Source: Mugil cephalus (Eukaryota; Chordata; Actinopteri; Mugiliformes; Mugilidae). From it: a DNA stretch of 64,000 nt. The notes under the pieces are model-generated. The model did not search any database. It had not been told where the DNA came from and was given only the letters and a program-made list of their open reading frames with translations. The translations under genes were made by a program, and so were the position numbers. The stretch spans positions 157,001-221,000 of the forward strand of contig NC_061787.1 of NCBI RefSeq assembly GCF_022458985.1, written 5' to 3'. Below, piece by piece: positions 21,142-61,586 of this stretch (its first letter is position 1; every line of letters begins with the position of its first letter).

Positions 21142-24100
21142 TCAGAGCTTGGCCTTGGCCTGGAAGAAGCTCATGACGGCGTTGAAACACTCGTCCGAGG
21201 TCCAGCGCTCCGTCAGGCGCTCCACCTCAGCATCGTTCACCGCGTGAAGACGCTCCTTCTCCACCGACCGGATCAGCTGTTTGGACAGAGCCAGAGACTG
21301 ACAGGGACAGAGACAGGGACAGAGACAGAGACAGGGACAGGGACAGAGACAGAGACAGAGACAGAGACAGAGACAGAGACAGAGACAGAGACAGACAGGG
21401 ACAGAGACAGAGACAGAGTAAGAGACAGAGACAGGGACCGAGACAGGGACAGACAGGGACAGGGACAGGGACAGAGACAGAGACAGGGACAGGGACAGGG
21501 AGGGGGGAAAGAAAAAGAAAAGAATACTGAATTTTCAACAGTCCTGGGTGATGAAACTGAGCCAACACTCGTGATAGAATCAGTCAATGCTATGAAGACG
21601 GACGTTTTTAAAAGGCTTTATACTAGTGACTGTGTGTTTGTGTTTACATTGGGGGGCAGCTTGGCGTAGGCCTTCAGTCTGGTCCAGACCTCCGACTGGA
21701 AGCTGCTGTCGGGAAAAACCTCCGTGACCAGGCCCAGTTCACAGGCCTGAACGGCCGTCAGCTTCTTATTAAACAGCAGCATCTCACTGGCCTGAAGACA
21801 GCAACATTCATAGGAGAGTATGATCGTCTCACTGTGCAGCAGCCAAGAACAAACAGTGTGAATATCTGTACCTTGGCGGCGCCCATGATCCGGGGGAAGG
21901 TGTAGGAGGAGCAGCCCTCAGCGCTCTGACCCAGCTGACTGAACGGAGTGTGGAACGTGGCCTGAGACACACAGAGTCACTGATCAATGACATGAACACA
22001 TGTTTCATATTCTCTCCTAAAACTGGACATGGAACGTCTCAGCACCACTGGATGCACTGGATCAGCACCAACTACAGATGCCTGGGTACATCCATTCATA
22101 GCTACCAACGGGGCCGGACCATCTCCGTCCATGTAGCTGGGTTAGGGCGGTTCTTCTTGTCACAGCGTTAATAACAGTTCTACTCTACGTGTGTTTTTGT
22201 GCACCCTCTCTGTAGCGTAGACCAGGTCAAAGAGTCCCAGCACAGTGACAGAGACTCCTACAGCCGGCCCGTTCACCACGGCAACCAGTGGCTTTGGGAA
22301 GTCGATGTAGGTCTTCACATACGTCCTGCAAAGGCAAAATAAAACAATAAAATTAACTGTAGAGTAGCAAAGTCTCAACCACTGTTCTGATGTAGATGGT
22401 TTTGATCTGAACATTTTACTCATTTTACTACTTCTGATCAAATTCTTTGCTGAATCATAAACAGATTCATCACCTTAACAGATCTCCTCCTTTCCTGGCC
22501 ATCTCCTCCACTCCTCCTTCAGGGATCTTGGTGAAGTTGGTGAGGTCGTTCCCGCTGCAGTAGAAATCTCCAGCACCTGCAGTGAAGAGAGGTTCCAGTA
22601 TTCAGTTCTATTTGTTTAGATGTTGCTGTAGATGGAACTGCCAGATGCATCTATACTTTCAACTGATCTGCAGCACTTTGATCTACTAGAAGCACGACTA
22701 CATCTCTGAACAAGTCCAGGTTCTGGTAGAGTTAGAAAAACTAACCTAAAAATATGTGAAGTACAAATGATCCAATCGTACAACACTGATGACACAATCG
22801 GTCCGATTCTTTTGACGGAGACGTGAGTTGGATCTAACTGAGACCTGTTACTGTGATGATGAGTCCCATGTGTTTGAAGCAGGAACGCTAGTAAGTGTGT
22901 GTACCAGTAAAAACAGTGAGGACGGAGTCGTCTTTCGCCGCCTGCTCCAGAGCTGCGATGATGTCGTTGTACATCTGAAAGAAAAATAATATTAAATAAC
23001 AAACAGCCCTAGTATGAGTCAGTGTAAAGAACTACATTCATAGTTTCATTCAGCTCCTACTTAAATAAAGAAGAGTTGTGATGTTTGGTTTGAAGCTCTG
23101 AATCCACACTGACCTCAGTCGTAATGGCGTTTTTCTTGGCAGGTCGGTTCAGTTTGATGGTGGTGATTCCATCCTCTGTGGTGACTAACAGCGTCTCAAA
23201 CTTTGACCCACTCGCAGCCGGATTTGCTACCACCTGGGCGGAGCTTCTGCCCTCTGCTGCCACCAGGGAACCAATCAGGTCACAGTACTGCTGCCTGGCC
23301 TCATCCTGATTAAACCAGGATTAAATGTATGCATCAGTTTATTTCTCATCTAAAGGAGCCAAAATGATCTACCCTGAGAGTAATATATTGGATATATATA
23401 TATATAAAACAAAGGTTATCAGTGCCAATAAACTACAGACAGAAGCTCCAGGTTGAATGCTTCCTATCACTGCTGATCCATTAGACGTGGTACCTGTGAT
23501 ATGGAGCCCAGTGACTTCCATGCATCCCACTTAACCTTGTTGACAAAGTCCAGCATCCCTGGTTTGGGAGTGTTGCAGGGGCCCTGAGTGGCCTGGAGGC
23601 AGGAAGTAAAATTAGGGTTAATTTCACCATGAAATGATGGAATAATTTAAGTCTAAGTCTAAATAAACAGAACAATAAATAAATAAGCATGTAATTGTGA
23701 TTCCCGGCAGGAATAGGTACAGGATTGGAGCAGTATGTGAAGGGGGAGCCACAGGTTCCCAAGCGGGTTGCAAGGATGTGGAGTGGTACCAACTACAGGT
23801 AGTTGGGCTCAGTTCTGCTAATAACACGGGTTCTGGAACCAAACTCTTGAGCGGGGCTGGATCATTTCCTTTTGTACACGGTGGGGAGTACAAAGCCCCA
23901 GGGCCACGGACTGCGTAGGTCTTCTCCGAGACTTTAGCGTCCTTGGCAACAGTGGGGCAGTTTGGACATGGCTGCCTGGACAAAACAACCCTGATGTGAA
24001 CCAGGGCAGTGCTACGTTCTCAGACCATAAACCATGTTCAAGCAAAGGGTAGATCATACATGTACTTGGAACCAGAGCGACTAAGACCAAAGGTTAATGA

Positions 24101-34000: not shown

Positions 34001-34967
34001 AGGAAGGCCCTTATTCTTTATAAAATATCTGCTCATATCTGGATAAATATCTCAATATTTTTTTGGTATAAAACTCAAAATTCCTTCATCTAGACTTTTA
34101 AAGTCTAAACTTTACATGTGCATCAGCATCCAAGAGATGATGTGATGTGACTTTGGTCACTGGTTATTGACTAAATATGATTTATACTTTGGAACGAGCT
34201 GTAAAGTCTCTCTCACATTGGTTTCTACTTCTTGACCTTCGCCCTGATTTTAATTATTTTAGAGACAGAGACAGTTTGCAGCAGAGGAACATTTATATAC
34301 TAACACAGGCAAATAAAAATTAGATTTATTATTGTACTTGGCTTTGGCTTCACTTTGAGGAGCCGTTACACAGGTTTGTAAGTAACAGGACCTCGTTCTC
34401 TGGTTCAACCTCCTAAGATTTTGTTTGCAATGCATTTTTAATTTCTTTAAGGTATTTGGGGTCAGTAGGTCCTAAGACATATAAAGATGAAGCATCTATT
34501 AACGGGAAGTTGTTTTGAAAAATAACCCCTGTCCTCATATGTGGACATGGGGGATTATATCACTGTATATATATGTATCTAATGTAATCATCAGTACGGT
34601 TTCTCTACATTGTTCCGGGTCTGGGTTCATATGCTTACAGCAGAGACACCCAACAGGACTTCTACTTCAAACCGTTAAGACTCGACCAAACAAATGACCC
34701 GACAGAAAAGTATCATTTTCTTTAGTTGTGACAGCTCAACAGGAAACGGGTTTAAATGAAAAAACGTGAATCAAACTTAAAGCGTATCGTCGTCAGAACA
34801 ACGACAGGAATCCTCAAATCAAGAGCTTTGATCTTTGGTTTCTCACAGTTTTCCTTCAAAACAATCACTGATCCTTCCAGACGTTAAAATGAAAATGTGG
34901 AGCTGATTATTGCTGCTTCAGTTTGGCACTTTACTGCAGGAGCTGCAGTTTCAGGGGCCTGGTGTCG
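34001..34967 (-). other. Between crygn and nub1; probable nub1 3' UTR
   Basis: No gene. A minus-strand AATAAA (TTTATT at 34325-34330 on the plus strand) is the nearest candidate polyadenylation signal I see for nub1, about 640 nt after its stop. Confidence 0.4.
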
Positions 34968-37900
34968 TCAGGCCGTGTGTCCGGCCTCTCGGTTCAGGTA
35001 GGCCTTCATGGTCGCGATGAGCTCGCTCTCCTCCTCCAGCGTCAGGTCCAGATAATCCTCCTCATGATGGGAGATGTCCTCTAGGACCTCGTTGACCAGC
35101 TCGCTGTCCTCTGAGGACACATTCAGAAAGACAACCTGTCAGTTATTTAAAACCATTTAAAACCATTTAAAACCATTATGGGTTCAATTTAAGACCAAGT
35201 ATGAAAAATAAGGACTTTCATACTGGAAATAAAGCGTAAGAGATGTAAGACTTGACAACTTGGCTAATGTAAGACCTTCAATGCAAAATATGTTTGTATT
35301 TAAGACTTGTGTGTATGTGTGTGTGTTGGACAGAAACATACGCACAAAACGTACAAGACATTTGATAGAATACACATACAACGGCACCAATTACCAAGGT
35401 ATCAGGTGTTGCTCATTAGGGTGATTGTTGTTGCACATCGCCCACATTGTGTAGAGTAGAGTAGAGTAGGGTAGGGTAGAGTAGGGCAGAGTAGAGTAGG
35501 GTAGAGTAGAGTAGAGTAGAGTAGAGTAGAGTAGGGTAGAGTAGAGTAGAGTAGAGTAGAGTAGAGTAGAGTAGAGTAGAGTAGAGTAGGGTAGGGTAGG
35601 GTAGGGTAGGGTAGGGTAGGGTAGAGTAGAGTAGAGTAGAGTAGAGTAGAGTAGAGTAGAGTAGGGTAGAGTAGAGTAGGGTAGAGTAGAGTAGGGTAGA
35701 GTAGGGTAGGGTAGAGTAGGGTAGAGTAGGGTAGAGTAGGGTAGGGTAGAGTAGGGTAGAGTAGGGTAGGGTAGAGTAGGGTAGAGTAGGGTAGGGTAGA
35801 GTAGGGTAGGGTAGAGTAGAGTAGAGTAGGGTAGGGTAGAGTAGAGTAGGGTAGGGTAGAGTAGGGTAAGTAGGTAGGGTAGTAGGTAGGTAGAGTAGGG
35901 TAGAGTAGGGTAGAGTAGGTAGGGTAGGTAGGGTAGGTAGGTAGGTAGAGTAGTAGTTAGGTAGGTAGGTAGGTAGGGTTAGGTTAGTAGGTTGGTTGTA
36001 GAGTGTATTGGGTGGAATGTATTCTGTGATTTATTAGGTTAGTTTCTAAGTTATTGGGTGGAATGAGGTCGAGGTTCTAAAGCCTCATTAGTTCTAGAAG
36101 CTGAGATGGTCTGAGCTCCTTGATACGTTAGAACCTCCCTCTGACCTCTGACCTCCTCTGACCTCTGACCTCCTGACCTCCCTCTGACCTCTGACCTCCT
36201 CTGACCTCTGACCTCCTGACCTCCCTCTGACCTCCTCTGACCTCCTGACCTCCCTCTGACCTCCCTCTGACCTCCTCTGACCTCTGACCTCCCTCTGACC
36301 TCTGACCTCCCTCTGACCTCCTCTGACCTCTGACCTCCCTCTGACCTCCCTCTGACCTCCTCTGACCTCTGACCTCTGACCTCCCTCTGACCTCTGACCT
36401 CCTGACCTCCCTCTGACCTCCTCTGGCCTCCTGACCTCCCTCTGACCTCTGACCTCCTCTGACCTCCTGACCTCCCTCTGACCTCCTCTGACCTCCCTCT
36501 GACCTCTGACCTCCCTCTGACCTCCTCTGACCTCCCTCTGACCTCCTCTGACCTCCCTCTGACCTCTGACCTCCTCTGACCTCTGACCTCTGACCTCCTC
36601 TGACCTCCCTCTGACCTCCTCTGACCTCCCTCTGACCTCCCTCTGACCTCCCTCTGACCTCCTCTGACCTCCTCTGACCTCCGACCTCCTCTGACCTCTG
36701 ACCTCCTCTGACCTCTGACCTCCCTCTGACCTCTGAGGTCTGTGAGTGTCTCACCTGGGCTGGCCGAGGAAGTACTGGGCTCCTCACAGGACGGTGAGGA
36801 GGAGGTGGACGGAGTGGAGGTGGACGGAGGGGACGTGGACGGAGTGGAGGTGGACAGGAGTTCCGGGGACAAGTAGCCCTGATTGTCCAGCAGCAGCTGA
36901 GTCGCTGCCTGGACGTCTCCACCGGTCAATCTGAGAGCTGCTTCAGACGAGTCTCTCTCAAAACCCAAATACAGCAGCTGCAGAGACACAGAGACAACAG
37001 CTGGAGGACAACAGCAGGAGGACAACAGCAGGGGGACACCAGCAGCTGGAGGACAACAGCAGCTGGAGGACACCAGCAGCTGGAGGACAACAGCTGGAGG
37101 ACACCAGCAGCTGGAGGACAACAGCAAGGGGACACCAGCTGGAGGACAACAGCTGGAGGACACCAGCGGCTGGAGGACACCAGCTGGAGGACACCAGCAG
37201 CTGGAGGACACCAGCAGCTGGAAGACAACAGCTGGAGGACACCAGCAGATGGAGGACACCAGCTGGAGGACACCAGCTGGAGGATACCAGCAGATGGAGG
37301 ACACCAGCTGGAGGCAGGGGGTTACCTGCTGCAGCCGGTCCGGACTCAGCGCCTCCTCCGTGTTGTTGTTGGTGGCCTGAGCAGCCTGACTGGAGCTCAC
37401 CAGGATCTGAGGAGGACACAGGATGAGACATTTAGCTTCACTCTGAGGTTCCTGCTGTTAAAGTCACAGGGGGACAGGAAGTCACTGACGGCGTAAGCTT
37501 TGTCCACGTCTCCATCAGCGTGATGCAGAGCTCGGCCGGCGTCTCTCCGGGAGAAGCCCAGCTCTGCCAGGGTGGAGATGGCCTCCATCCTCCTCCTCCT
37601 CTTCTGCCTTTCCCTCTGCTGCAGCTCCTCCCGCTCCTGGTGCAAAGACAAAGACGTCCTCAGCCAACAGCCAATCACAAAGGAGGAGAAACACGTGGAC
37701 GCCAGTCTACTACCTGTCTGCTATCTACTACCTGTCTGCTATCTGCTACCTGTCTGCTATCTGCTACCTGTCTGCTATCTGCTACCTGTCTGCTAACTGC
37801 TACCTGTCTGCTACCTGTCTGCTATCTGCTACCTGTCTGCTAACTGCTACCTGTCTGCTACCTGTCTGCTAACTGCTACCTGTCTGCTACCTGTCTGCTA

Positions 37901-40900
37901 ACCGCTACCTGTCTGCTAACTGCTACCTGTCTGCTAACTGCTACCTGTCTGCTAACTGCTACCTGTCTGCTAACTGCTACCTGTCTGCTTCCTGTCATGT
38001 TTACTACCTGTCTACTACCTATCTGCTACCTGTCTGCTTCCTGTCTGCTACCTATCTGCTACCTGTCTGCTACCTGTCTGCTTCCTGTCTGCTACCTGTC
38101 TGCTACCTGTCTGCTTCCTGTCTGCTACCTGTCTGCTACCTGTCTGCTATCTGCCTGCTTCCTGTCTGCTACCTGTCTGCTATCTGCTACCTGTCTGCTA
38201 TCTACTACCTGTCTGCTAACTGCTACCTGTCTGCTATCTGCTACCTGTCTGCTATCTACTACCTGTCTACTATCTGCTACCTGTCTGCTAACTGCTACCT
38301 GTCTGCTAACTACTACCTGTCTGCTATCTGCTACCTGTCTGCTAACTGCTACCTGTCTGCTACCTGTCTGCTAACTACTACCTGTCTACTATCTGCTACC
38401 TGTCTGCTAACTGCTACCTGTCTGCTAACTGCTACCTGTCTGCTAACTACTACCTGTCTGATAACTACTACCTGTCTGCTACCTGTCTGCTAACTACTAC
38501 CTGTCTGCTAACTGCTACCTGTCTGCTAACTGCTACCTGTCTGCTAACTGCTACCTGTCTGCTTCCTGTCATGTTTACTACCTGTCTACTACCTATCTGC
38601 TACCTGTCTGCTTCCTGTCTGCTTCCTGTCTGCTACCTATCTGCTTCCTGTCTGCTTCCTGTCTGCTTCCTGTCTGCTACCTGTCTGCTACCTGTCTGCT
38701 ACCTGTCTGCTACCTGTCTGCTACCTGTCTGCGGTTGCTGATGTGGATGCTAGCCTCCTGCAGGTCTCCCTGACAGGCTCTGAGTCCCAGTCGAGCTTCT
38801 CTCTCGGTGAAACCCATTTCCATCAGCTGGGTCATTTTCTCCGAGTCCAGACACAGACGTCCGTACAGAGACTCCACCTGACAAACAACAACAACAACAA
38901 CAACATCATCAGGTCTGACGGGACACAGCAACACAACCAGTTAAATGCTCAAACTGCATCAGACTGACTTTGGACAGTTGCTGCCGGGCCTGACAGTCGT
39001 TTCCCTCGATGTAGGAGAGGAGACTCTGGAGGAGGTACAGCCGGAGGAACAGCACCTCCTCTCTGCCCGTGTTACCCTGGCAACGCACACACGTCAATGA
39101 TGTCAGGTGGGAATGAGTTGGTCATGATGGTGGAGGCTCAGCTCCTCCTCTACATGCTGGGGTTCAGTGTCGGGGGCACTGGTCTCGTTGTGCTGCTCTG
39201 GTGTTGTGTTGTGTTGTTGTGTAGTTGTGTAGTTGTGTGTGCTACCTTGATCATGAGCAGCCTCTGCTGCTGAGCTCCGTAACACTGGAGGAAACAGTCC
39301 TCAGCTTTCTGCAGGCGACTCTTCCCATCGTCCAGACACGACAGCGCCTCCAGGGCCCTGTAACACCACACGATGTCCAGCTGCAGGACGGCATAGTTGT
39401 CCACCGAGCTGAGCAGAGCCGACCGCAACACACTGCACACAGACACGCAACAGTCAGGCGAGAGTCACAGGGGAGGACACACTAACGGACGGGCCGTACC
39501 TGAACTGCTGGTCGGCCTGCAGCAGGTGACACAGAGCGTTGTCGTACTGCTTCTTCTTCATCAGAGCTCGACCTTTCTCATGGAAGCCCATGGCCAGGAT
39601 CAGGGCCTGGAGACACACAACACACACAGACACACAACACAGGTTCAAAACTGATGTCTGCAGTCAGACCAGAGACTGTATAAAGATAATAGAGCTCCCC
39701 CTGGTGGCTGAAGGCTGCAATGGATGGTCTCAGTCATTTTATGTAGTTAATATAATGTTGGTCAATGTTCAAGTGTCAAAGTTTTGTTCTAGTTTGTTAT
39801 TTGACGCTAGAGAAACATGAAGTGACATAATGGTGACTACCAGGTGCCATCCGGGGCCGTGAGAGGTGTAAAAATCTTAAAAAATGAGATCGTACTGATC
39901 AGACTCATCCCTCCGTCCATATCCCCAGGAAACAGCATCAGTTTGTCCAACATAAGGTAGTGGGGACACGTTGTCCATATTTATATAGAGTCTCTGTGTG
40001 AAACCAGCTGCTCACTGACTGAATCCAGTTCTCTGGATTATTGATGCGTGTGAAGGAGCTGCTGAGTGTCACCTTCTTCTCCTTGTGAGGGATCTTCAGG
40101 GGGTTTCCCTTCTGATCAGCGATCTCCAGGAAAGGCACCGTGTCTGGATCCTCGCTGCCGTCTGACAAACACAAACCACGATTCTTCAAACAGGTGTTTT
40201 GTTAACGAGCTCTTGCCTAATATTTAAACATCTACATATTAAGTCAGTGCCGCCCCTCAGGAACGACCCTGCTTCCACTTCCCTGGACATTTCTAAGTTG
40301 TTCATCTCACTTCAGATGAATGTGTGTCCACTTAATTCGTACAATTTAATTCAAATAAAATGTCTCCCCCCGAATCTCCACCATCGACCCTGTGGATTAA
40401 ACACATGTTCGCACCTCTCTCGGACAGGATCTGGAAGCCTTTCTTGGTCCTCTGGATGCTCTCGCTCTGGTTCGTCCTCTTCTCCTCCTCCTCAGTCATC
40501 TGTCGCTTCAGCTCAGCATCGCTCACCCTCAGCACCATGACCTTACTGTGATTCTTCACGCCCTGATCGGCCAGGACCTGGTCTGAGAGACAGACACACA
40601 TCTGAACATCACCCCCGTGTCTCATCACAGCGATCAACCGACCGACCAATGCTCATCTCCACAAAGAGACAGACGGCTTTTCACTGGAAGGTAGGTTTGA
40701 TTGACAGGTGGCTTGGATTAACGAGTAGATATGATTGACAGGTGGATCTGATTGATCAACAGGTGTGTCTGACTGATTGACAGGTGTGACTGATTGACTG
40801 ACAGGTGTGTCTGATTGATTGTCTGATTGATTGACAGGTGTGTCTGATTGACTGACAGGTGTGTCTGATTGACTGACAGGTGTGTCTGATTGATTGTCTG

Positions 40901-41775
40901 ATTGATTGACAGGTGTGTCTGACTGACTGACAGGTGTGTCTGATTGACAGGTTGATTTGATTGACAGGTGTGTCTGACTGATTGACAGGTGTGACTGATT
41001 GATTGACAGGTGTGTCTGATTGACTGACAGGTGTGTCTGATTGATTGATAGGTGTGTCTGACTGACTGACAGGTGTGTCTGATTGACAGGTTGATTTGAT
41101 TGACAGGTGTGTCTGACTGATTGATTGACAGGTGTGTCTGACTGATTGACAGGTGTGTCTGATTGACTGACAGGTGTGTCTGATTGACTGACAGGTGTGT
41201 CTGATTGATTGATAGGTGTGTCTGACTGACTGACAGGTGTGTCTGATTGACAGGTTGATTTGATTGACAGGTGTGTCTGACCTGCTGCCAGCGTTTTCCC
41301 GTTGAGGATCAGTTTGATGTGTTTCAGGCCGTGCTCCTGTCCAACCCTGTCTATCACCTCCTGGGCCAGTGTGTCCAGCCTCGTCTCCAGGTAGGTCTTC
41401 GCCTTTGGGTCCTGGAGACAAACATGGCGTCGTGTTAAGACCAGCGTCCACAGACAAAACAAACATCCTTCAGGGGCCTAACGTCCGTCCACCTTCTTGC
41501 TGTCTCTGGGCAGCAGCAGCTCCAGCGTGGCCACGTTGGTTTCTCTGAACGTCTTGTTGCCTTTTCCTCTCTTCACAGCCTGAGCTCGGATCGACTCCAG
41601 AGCGCCACCTACCTCCGACGCAGGCAGACACAGGAGAGGCGCGTAGCGCTCTGCTAGCTCCTGACCAGGGAGGAGGAGGAAAAAAGGGTTTAACACACCA
41701 CGATCAGCTCAAATAAACTCCCCAAACTAGTATTTTTGTTCTGTCACTGTGTGAAATATCTGGTCTCAGTGTGTC

Positions 41776-49830: not shown

Positions 49831-61586
<11,756 letters not shown>

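Follow-up and report, generated by a model that had tools for sequence, protein, structure and literature searches.

The window analysed here comprises 64,000 nucleotides (nt), 157–221 kb of one of the 24 contigs of the 634.8 Mb Mugil cephalus genome, and carries on its minus strand the gene nub1, whose intron 9 consists almost entirely of a tandem array of its own 5′ splice site. We modelled nub1 with 12 coding exons encoding 558 residues, and an additional, final exon was located during intron mapping; exon numbers refer to the coding exons of the present model. The modelled protein gave Pfam matches to Ubiquitin_5 and three UBA stretches, and its PDB match was human NUB1. Exon 9 terminates in ...AACCGCAGACAG at 38725 and intron 9 opens with GTAGCAGACAGGTAGCAG, while a CTGA approximately 24 nt upstream of the intron 9 acceptor is a candidate branch site. 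When exon 9 is spliced to exon 10 via the first donor, the product aligns with human NUB1 (8usc) over 83 columns without gaps. The 49 residues of exon 10 probably form most of the second UBA, and skipping of this exon would preserve the reading frame. Searching the genome with joined exons 9 and 10 returned those two nub1 exons only, and thus no nub1 retrocopy that could serve as a record of splicing. Feature coordinates are collected in Table 1, where, as in the text, a slash within a splice-site motif marks the exon-intron boundary.

Table 1. Features of the nub1 intron 9 region and of a second donor-overlapping array, with window positions unless a contig is given
Feature	Position	Strand	Remarks
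nub1 coding exon 9	38725..38877	-	153 nt; first UBA region; ends NRRQ
Final 8 nt of exon 9 (GCAGACAG)	38725..38732	-	identical to array unit
Authentic 5′ splice site CAG/GTAGCA	38719..38727	-	
nub1 intron 9	37637..38724	-	1088 nt
Tandem array, 11-nt CAGACAGGTAG and 7-nt CAGTTAG or CAGATAG units	37706..38732	-	Tandem Repeats Finder; 55 CAG/GT sites
Donor-proximal block, higher-order duplication copy 1	38429..38732	-	offset 574 nt
Higher-order duplication copy 2	37855..38158	-	
Non-repeat 3′ end of intron 9	37637..37705	-	pyrimidine tract, acceptor CACCAG
nub1 coding exon 10	37490..37636	-	147 nt, 49 codons
L033 donor-seeded array	C1:27181292-27183527	-	30-nt unit, 14 exon bases + CAG/GTGAGC, 25 donor copies

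Tandem Repeats Finder (TRF) bounded the array at 37705/37706-38732, covering the donor and nearly the whole intron, from 8 nt within exon 9 to 68 nt before the acceptor. This bears out the preliminary description of this DNA, which had read intron 9 as a tandem array of its own 5′ splice site with the authentic donor as the first unit. The array was parsed into 103 units, consisting of 67 11-mers with the consensus CAGACAGGTAG (present 51 times), 32 7-mers (CAGTTAG, CAGATAG and variants) and 4 others, and contains CAGGTAG 55 times. The exact 14-mer CAGACAGGTAGCAG occurs 43 times and not, as had been estimated, about 70 times, a figure that agrees with the count of 11-mer units. The authentic donor and the CAG/GT sites beyond it number 55, leaving 54 decoys; a spacing of 11 or 18 nt, as first described, holds for 45 of the 54 gaps (12 and 33 respectively), while the other 9 measure 22-77 nt. 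Similarly, the view that every unit is an equal decoy applies to the 54 CAG/GT sites, which match the donor, but not to the common 7-mers, which lack a GT donor and are absent from the first 14 units counted from the exon, all of these being 11-mers. The donor-proximal block of 304 nt is repeated 574 nt downstream with identity at 284 of 304 positions (93 %), and growth of the array therefore included a large internal duplication. Genome-wide the 14-mer has 52 matches, 43 of them within this 1-kb array and 9 as single matches elsewhere, which rules out a dispersed satellite family; the reversed 14-mer, used as a control, matched 4 times in all. The 14-mer array is thus specific to the nub1 locus, far beyond chance.

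Each decoy was translated and all 54 lead to a premature stop. The predicted product V-A-D-R-stop was recovered for 53 of them, whereas the decoy at +11 shifts the frame and stops later. The in-frame hexapeptide VADSRQ, which had also been anticipated, is ruled out as an isoform, with 0 of 54 decoys reading through: it requires a 7-mer in the first repeat, and since the exon-proximal units are all 11-mers it does not arise. We scored donors by position weights; 55 of 102 GT sites, counting the authentic one, equal or exceed the score of the authentic donor, which is weak (0.38 vs 8.63 for the consensus). The U1 duplex of the authentic donor, at -7.7 kcal/mol, is mid-range among the twelve nub1 donors, which span -1.6 to -11.1. 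As the decoys score like the authentic donor, position and exon context rather than sequence presumably favour the first site, which is probably the one mainly used. Among competing donors SRSF1 favours the intron-proximal and hnRNP A1 the intron-distal site, and DOK7 has two donors 11 nt apart (PMC5585400). TAG occurs 109 times in 1019 nt of the array, and it is tempting to speculate that such a TAG-rich array could recruit hnRNP A1, favouring the first (intron-distal) site. With 55 near-identical donors of which only the first keeps the frame open, intron 9 is a clean natural experiment on how a 5′ splice site is selected among equals.

We identified a second array of this type at a locus on contig C1 (L033), where 25 copies of CAGGTRAR lie mostly 30 nt apart and the last 14 exon bases recur exactly six times. 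All 24 of its decoys have a stop in the extension, and the exon keeps its frame when joined to the next exon, the acceptor having been picked by eye. L033 is an independent case of a donor-seeded array and a stronger one than nub1. No match to its gene was found in a PDB search (E up to 1) or in Pfam; we take it to resemble brambleberry. A further locus, L032, is a possible third case with a putative exon. Across the genome, three CAGGTRAG motifs in tandem gave 813 overlapping matches (reversed control 40), and the equivalent pattern of scrambled CAGTGRAG gave 91 (reversed control 22); since matches overlap within arrays these counts do not equal loci. Among the matches listed, contigs C1 and C2 held 18 triple-donor clusters vs 2 scrambled. 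As single copies in 20 sampled 10-kb loci the two motifs numbered 24 vs 24, or 16 vs 20 without three repeat-rich loci. Of the 18 listed strong-donor clusters, 17 were fetched for inspection, and since some of these lie, by eye, antisense beside acceptors (see below), donor seeding throughout the genome does not account for the triple-donor excess. The listed strong-donor arrays cluster at 26.6-28.5 Mb of C1, near its middle; at 54 Mb this contig is far longer than C2 (34.5 Mb) and C3 (31.9 Mb), and its middle may represent a former chromosome end at a site of fusion.

It is probable that the minisatellite was born from, or at, the junction of exon 9 and intron 9 of nub1 and has been tolerated there. 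In 43 introns from four genes, no exon suffix repeated within the following intron is longer than that of exon 9 (8 nt; the next is 6 nt), and these 8 bases belong to Arg-Arg codons conserved with human NUB1 (HI[S/T]NRR). Given this conservation the exon sequence probably came first, and, taken together with the presence of the last 8 exon bases within the unit, it favours growth from the junction; the earlier suggestion that the array had grown from a splice donor is therefore probably correct, the stronger case of L033 with 14 exon nt pointing the same way. A number of observations weigh against this origin. The array shares no more than 8 nt with the exon, including a CAG that many donors would be expected to have anyway, and the last codon of exon 9 encodes Gln where human NUB1 has Glu. 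CAGGT-rich arrays are present in this genome away from donors, and intron 3 of nub1 has CAGGTG words antisense to the gene. Among the 17 fetched clusters L033 was clearly located at the end of an exon, its unit including the donor, and L032 possibly so, 6 were antisense, opposite or beside acceptors (by eye), and 9 could not be placed at an exon end; the existence of donor-like arrays that are not donors weakens the case for an origin from a donor. As regards use of the first site, SRSF1 suppresses the intron-distal of two donors when it is bound immediately upstream of the pair (PMC5585400), which would disfavour the first nub1 donor. An array born nearby may also have overwritten the donor at a later time. 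Such an account, in which the array arose in the intron from unrelated sequence and reached the junction, where slippage or gene conversion put array units in place of the earlier donor and the final bases of the exon, is possible but not probable: arrays fill short introns here, with 18 of the 43 modelled introns holding one, their closeness to donors mostly follows from the shortness of the introns, CAGGT-type arrays are common, as the excess of triple-donor over scrambled matches indicates, and the Glu to Gln change at the last codon is consistent with overwriting. However, the overwritten exon bases would need to retain Arg-Arg, and the 14 coding nt repeated at L033 would be harder to obtain in this manner.

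Other explanations fare less well. That intron 9 was itself gained when an exon segment containing AGGT was duplicated in tandem is very improbable. The unit does contain AGGT and span the coding end, in line with a model outlined in PMC4974935, but the 68 nt at the 3′ end of the intron lie outside the repeat and include a pyrimidine tract of their own. Equally hard to credit is an assembly artefact; a kilobase array with so similar an internal duplication is easily mis-sized, but the variation among units is ordered and the flanking exons are intact. We also regard as improbable a functional decoy field through which nub1 would be regulated by U1 titration, by premature-stop transcripts or by protection from premature polyadenylation. 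The 54 decoys, none of which scores below the authentic donor and all of which yield a stop, would suit such a role, and the first 500 nt are less strongly folded than mononucleotide shuffles (-70.9 vs a mean of -97.6 kcal/mol, 30 shuffles), so that the sites should be accessible. Arguing against it are the weakness of the authentic donor by the position weights, the arrays in other introns of the window whose unit has no donor, and the GT dinucleotide, which is neither purged nor specially retained, its T varying more than any other position in the 11-mer (9 of 67). The weak poly(A) variant AGTAAA occurs twice in intron 9, but AATAAA and ATTAAA are both absent from it, the sole AATAAA on the nub1 strand within 34700-38900 lying at 36035 in intron 12; control of premature polyadenylation, raised in the preliminary description, is thus not supported. 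A function beyond cellular tolerance of the array is not supported.

Under the favoured origin at the junction, a short tandem duplication across the last 7-8 exon bases and the first intron bases would have copied the 5′ splice site in an intron whose non-repeat part was about 68 nt. Slippage, the appearance of 7-nt derivative units and the 574-nt higher-order duplication would then have lengthened intron 9 to 1088 nt, each CAG/GTAG unit presenting a U1 site equal to the authentic donor. Splicing may have tolerated this growth through predominant use of the first donor, which adjoins exonic sequence, while transcripts from later donors, with their computed premature stops, would presumably undergo nonsense-mediated decay. 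The array itself is most likely a mutational by-product without function.

The nub1 array has the structural features of donor-overlapping variable number tandem repeats (VNTRs) such as those of ABCA7, CBS and IFI6: the canonical donor lies in the first unit, equivalent GT donors follow in later ones, and 8 exon nt recur in the array, as in the CBS type, where the repeats serve as donors. It is unusual, as had been claimed, but these three genes provide precedents, and nub1 presents a known kind of repeat, here with many equal donors, of which the genome holds a second example. In human ABCA7 the intron 18 VNTR flanks the exon, its first GT being the exon 18 donor at which the 25-bp unit begins; retention of one unit (25 bp) is out of frame and gives a premature stop, cycloheximide raises the level of such transcripts, and longer arrays show more skipping of exon 19 (PMC5954066). 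Two frameshifting events are given there as 14 % and 2 %, the latter being, by our reading of the text order, the one-unit retention. Like ABCA7, nub1 has its canonical donor at the first GT of the array and an out-of-frame donor one unit downstream, whereas ABCA7 differs in its 25-bp units, approximately 12-427 copies, proven polymorphism and length effect from the 11- and 7-nt units and single allele of nub1. By analogy, low-level +11 retention and, in longer alleles, in-frame exon 10 skipping are the likely phenotypes to be expected.

The human CBS 31-bp VNTR, c.1444_1467+7, has a unit that by its notation spans the end of exon 13 and 7 intron bases (PMC2630376), and it is located at the exon 13/intron 13 boundary (PMC5188458). 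Both CBS and nub1 units hold the exon end and the first intron bases, although CBS has 24 exon nt per unit and 16-21 copies as opposed to 7-8 exon nt and 55 donor-type sites in nub1. Downstream units of the human IFI6 (6-16, G1P3) minisatellite act as splice donors, giving three mRNA species (PMC4526556); there alternative donors lead to protein isoforms, while every nub1 decoy leads to a premature stop. Intron gain by AGGT tandem duplication includes fission yeast genes in which a 24-bp segment has been duplicated several times (PMC4974935), and resembles nub1 in that a segment carrying a splice signal or junction is duplicated in tandem, but in nub1 an existing intron seems to have been lengthened. 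Fish intronic minisatellites are also represented by sparid growth hormone genes, whose introns vary by minisatellites (PMC3045353), no donor within the unit being mentioned in the passages on these introns. The Mugil arrays provide fish examples of a repeat type already described in human genes, one of which is linked to disease, and nub1 suggests a simple way in which donor-overlapping repeats start. More tentatively, and in our view rather doubtfully, exon-intron junctions may be recurrent birthplaces of minisatellites in repeat-rich regions (nub1 intron 9, L033 and perhaps L032), with array length tuning exon 10 skipping; if true, these loci would offer natural tests of how the cell selects the first among many identical 5′ splice sites.

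The 43 modelled introns of the window belong to xylb (18), eci2 (10), crygn (3) and nub1 (12). The names xylb, eci2 and crygn were assigned from reading of the translations, with Pfam matches to FGGY kinase for xylb and, below the cut-off, to enoyl-CoA hydratase for eci2. In a survey that excluded arrays of period 1-2 or shorter than 30 bp, 10 of the 18 arrays start ≤ 25 nt from the donor vs 7.7 expected if arrays were placed uniformly in what remains of the intron (p ~0.10), which is not significant and does not support proximity to donors as a general law of the window; two further arrays that start at the donor, in intron 3 of nub1 and intron 5 of xylb, were seen by eye and missed by TRF, and would raise this count but were excluded from it as post hoc. 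Tandem repeats make up 22.5 % of the window vs 0.3-3.8 % of ten interior samples. Human subtelomeres are strongly enriched in VNTRs (PMC7608644), and the window lies 157 kb from a contig end, yet samples at 160-170 kb from contig ends vary: 7 of 10 held less than 2 % tandem repeat and the others 31 % (C8), 16 % (C9) and 40 % (C10), and TRF found no arrays on C18 at 20 kb and 500 kb. A subtelomere position is therefore no more than a possible cause of the repeat richness.

In nub1 intron 3 (40583-41281) an array runs, by eye, from the first intron base and contains CAGGTGTGT words antisense to the gene. The 3.45 kb AGCCCCT array of xylb intron 3 (51864-55316), with approximately 494 copies, begins 13 nt after the donor. 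A TCTGTC-type array in eci2 intron 10 (21298-21647, minus strand) constitutes the pyrimidine tract and extends across the acceptor to cover 14 nt of the exon, a mirror of the arrangement in nub1, and the units of xylb intron 6 (56165-56631) consist of a pyrimidine tract followed by CCAG, producing many sense acceptor-like decoys (by eye).

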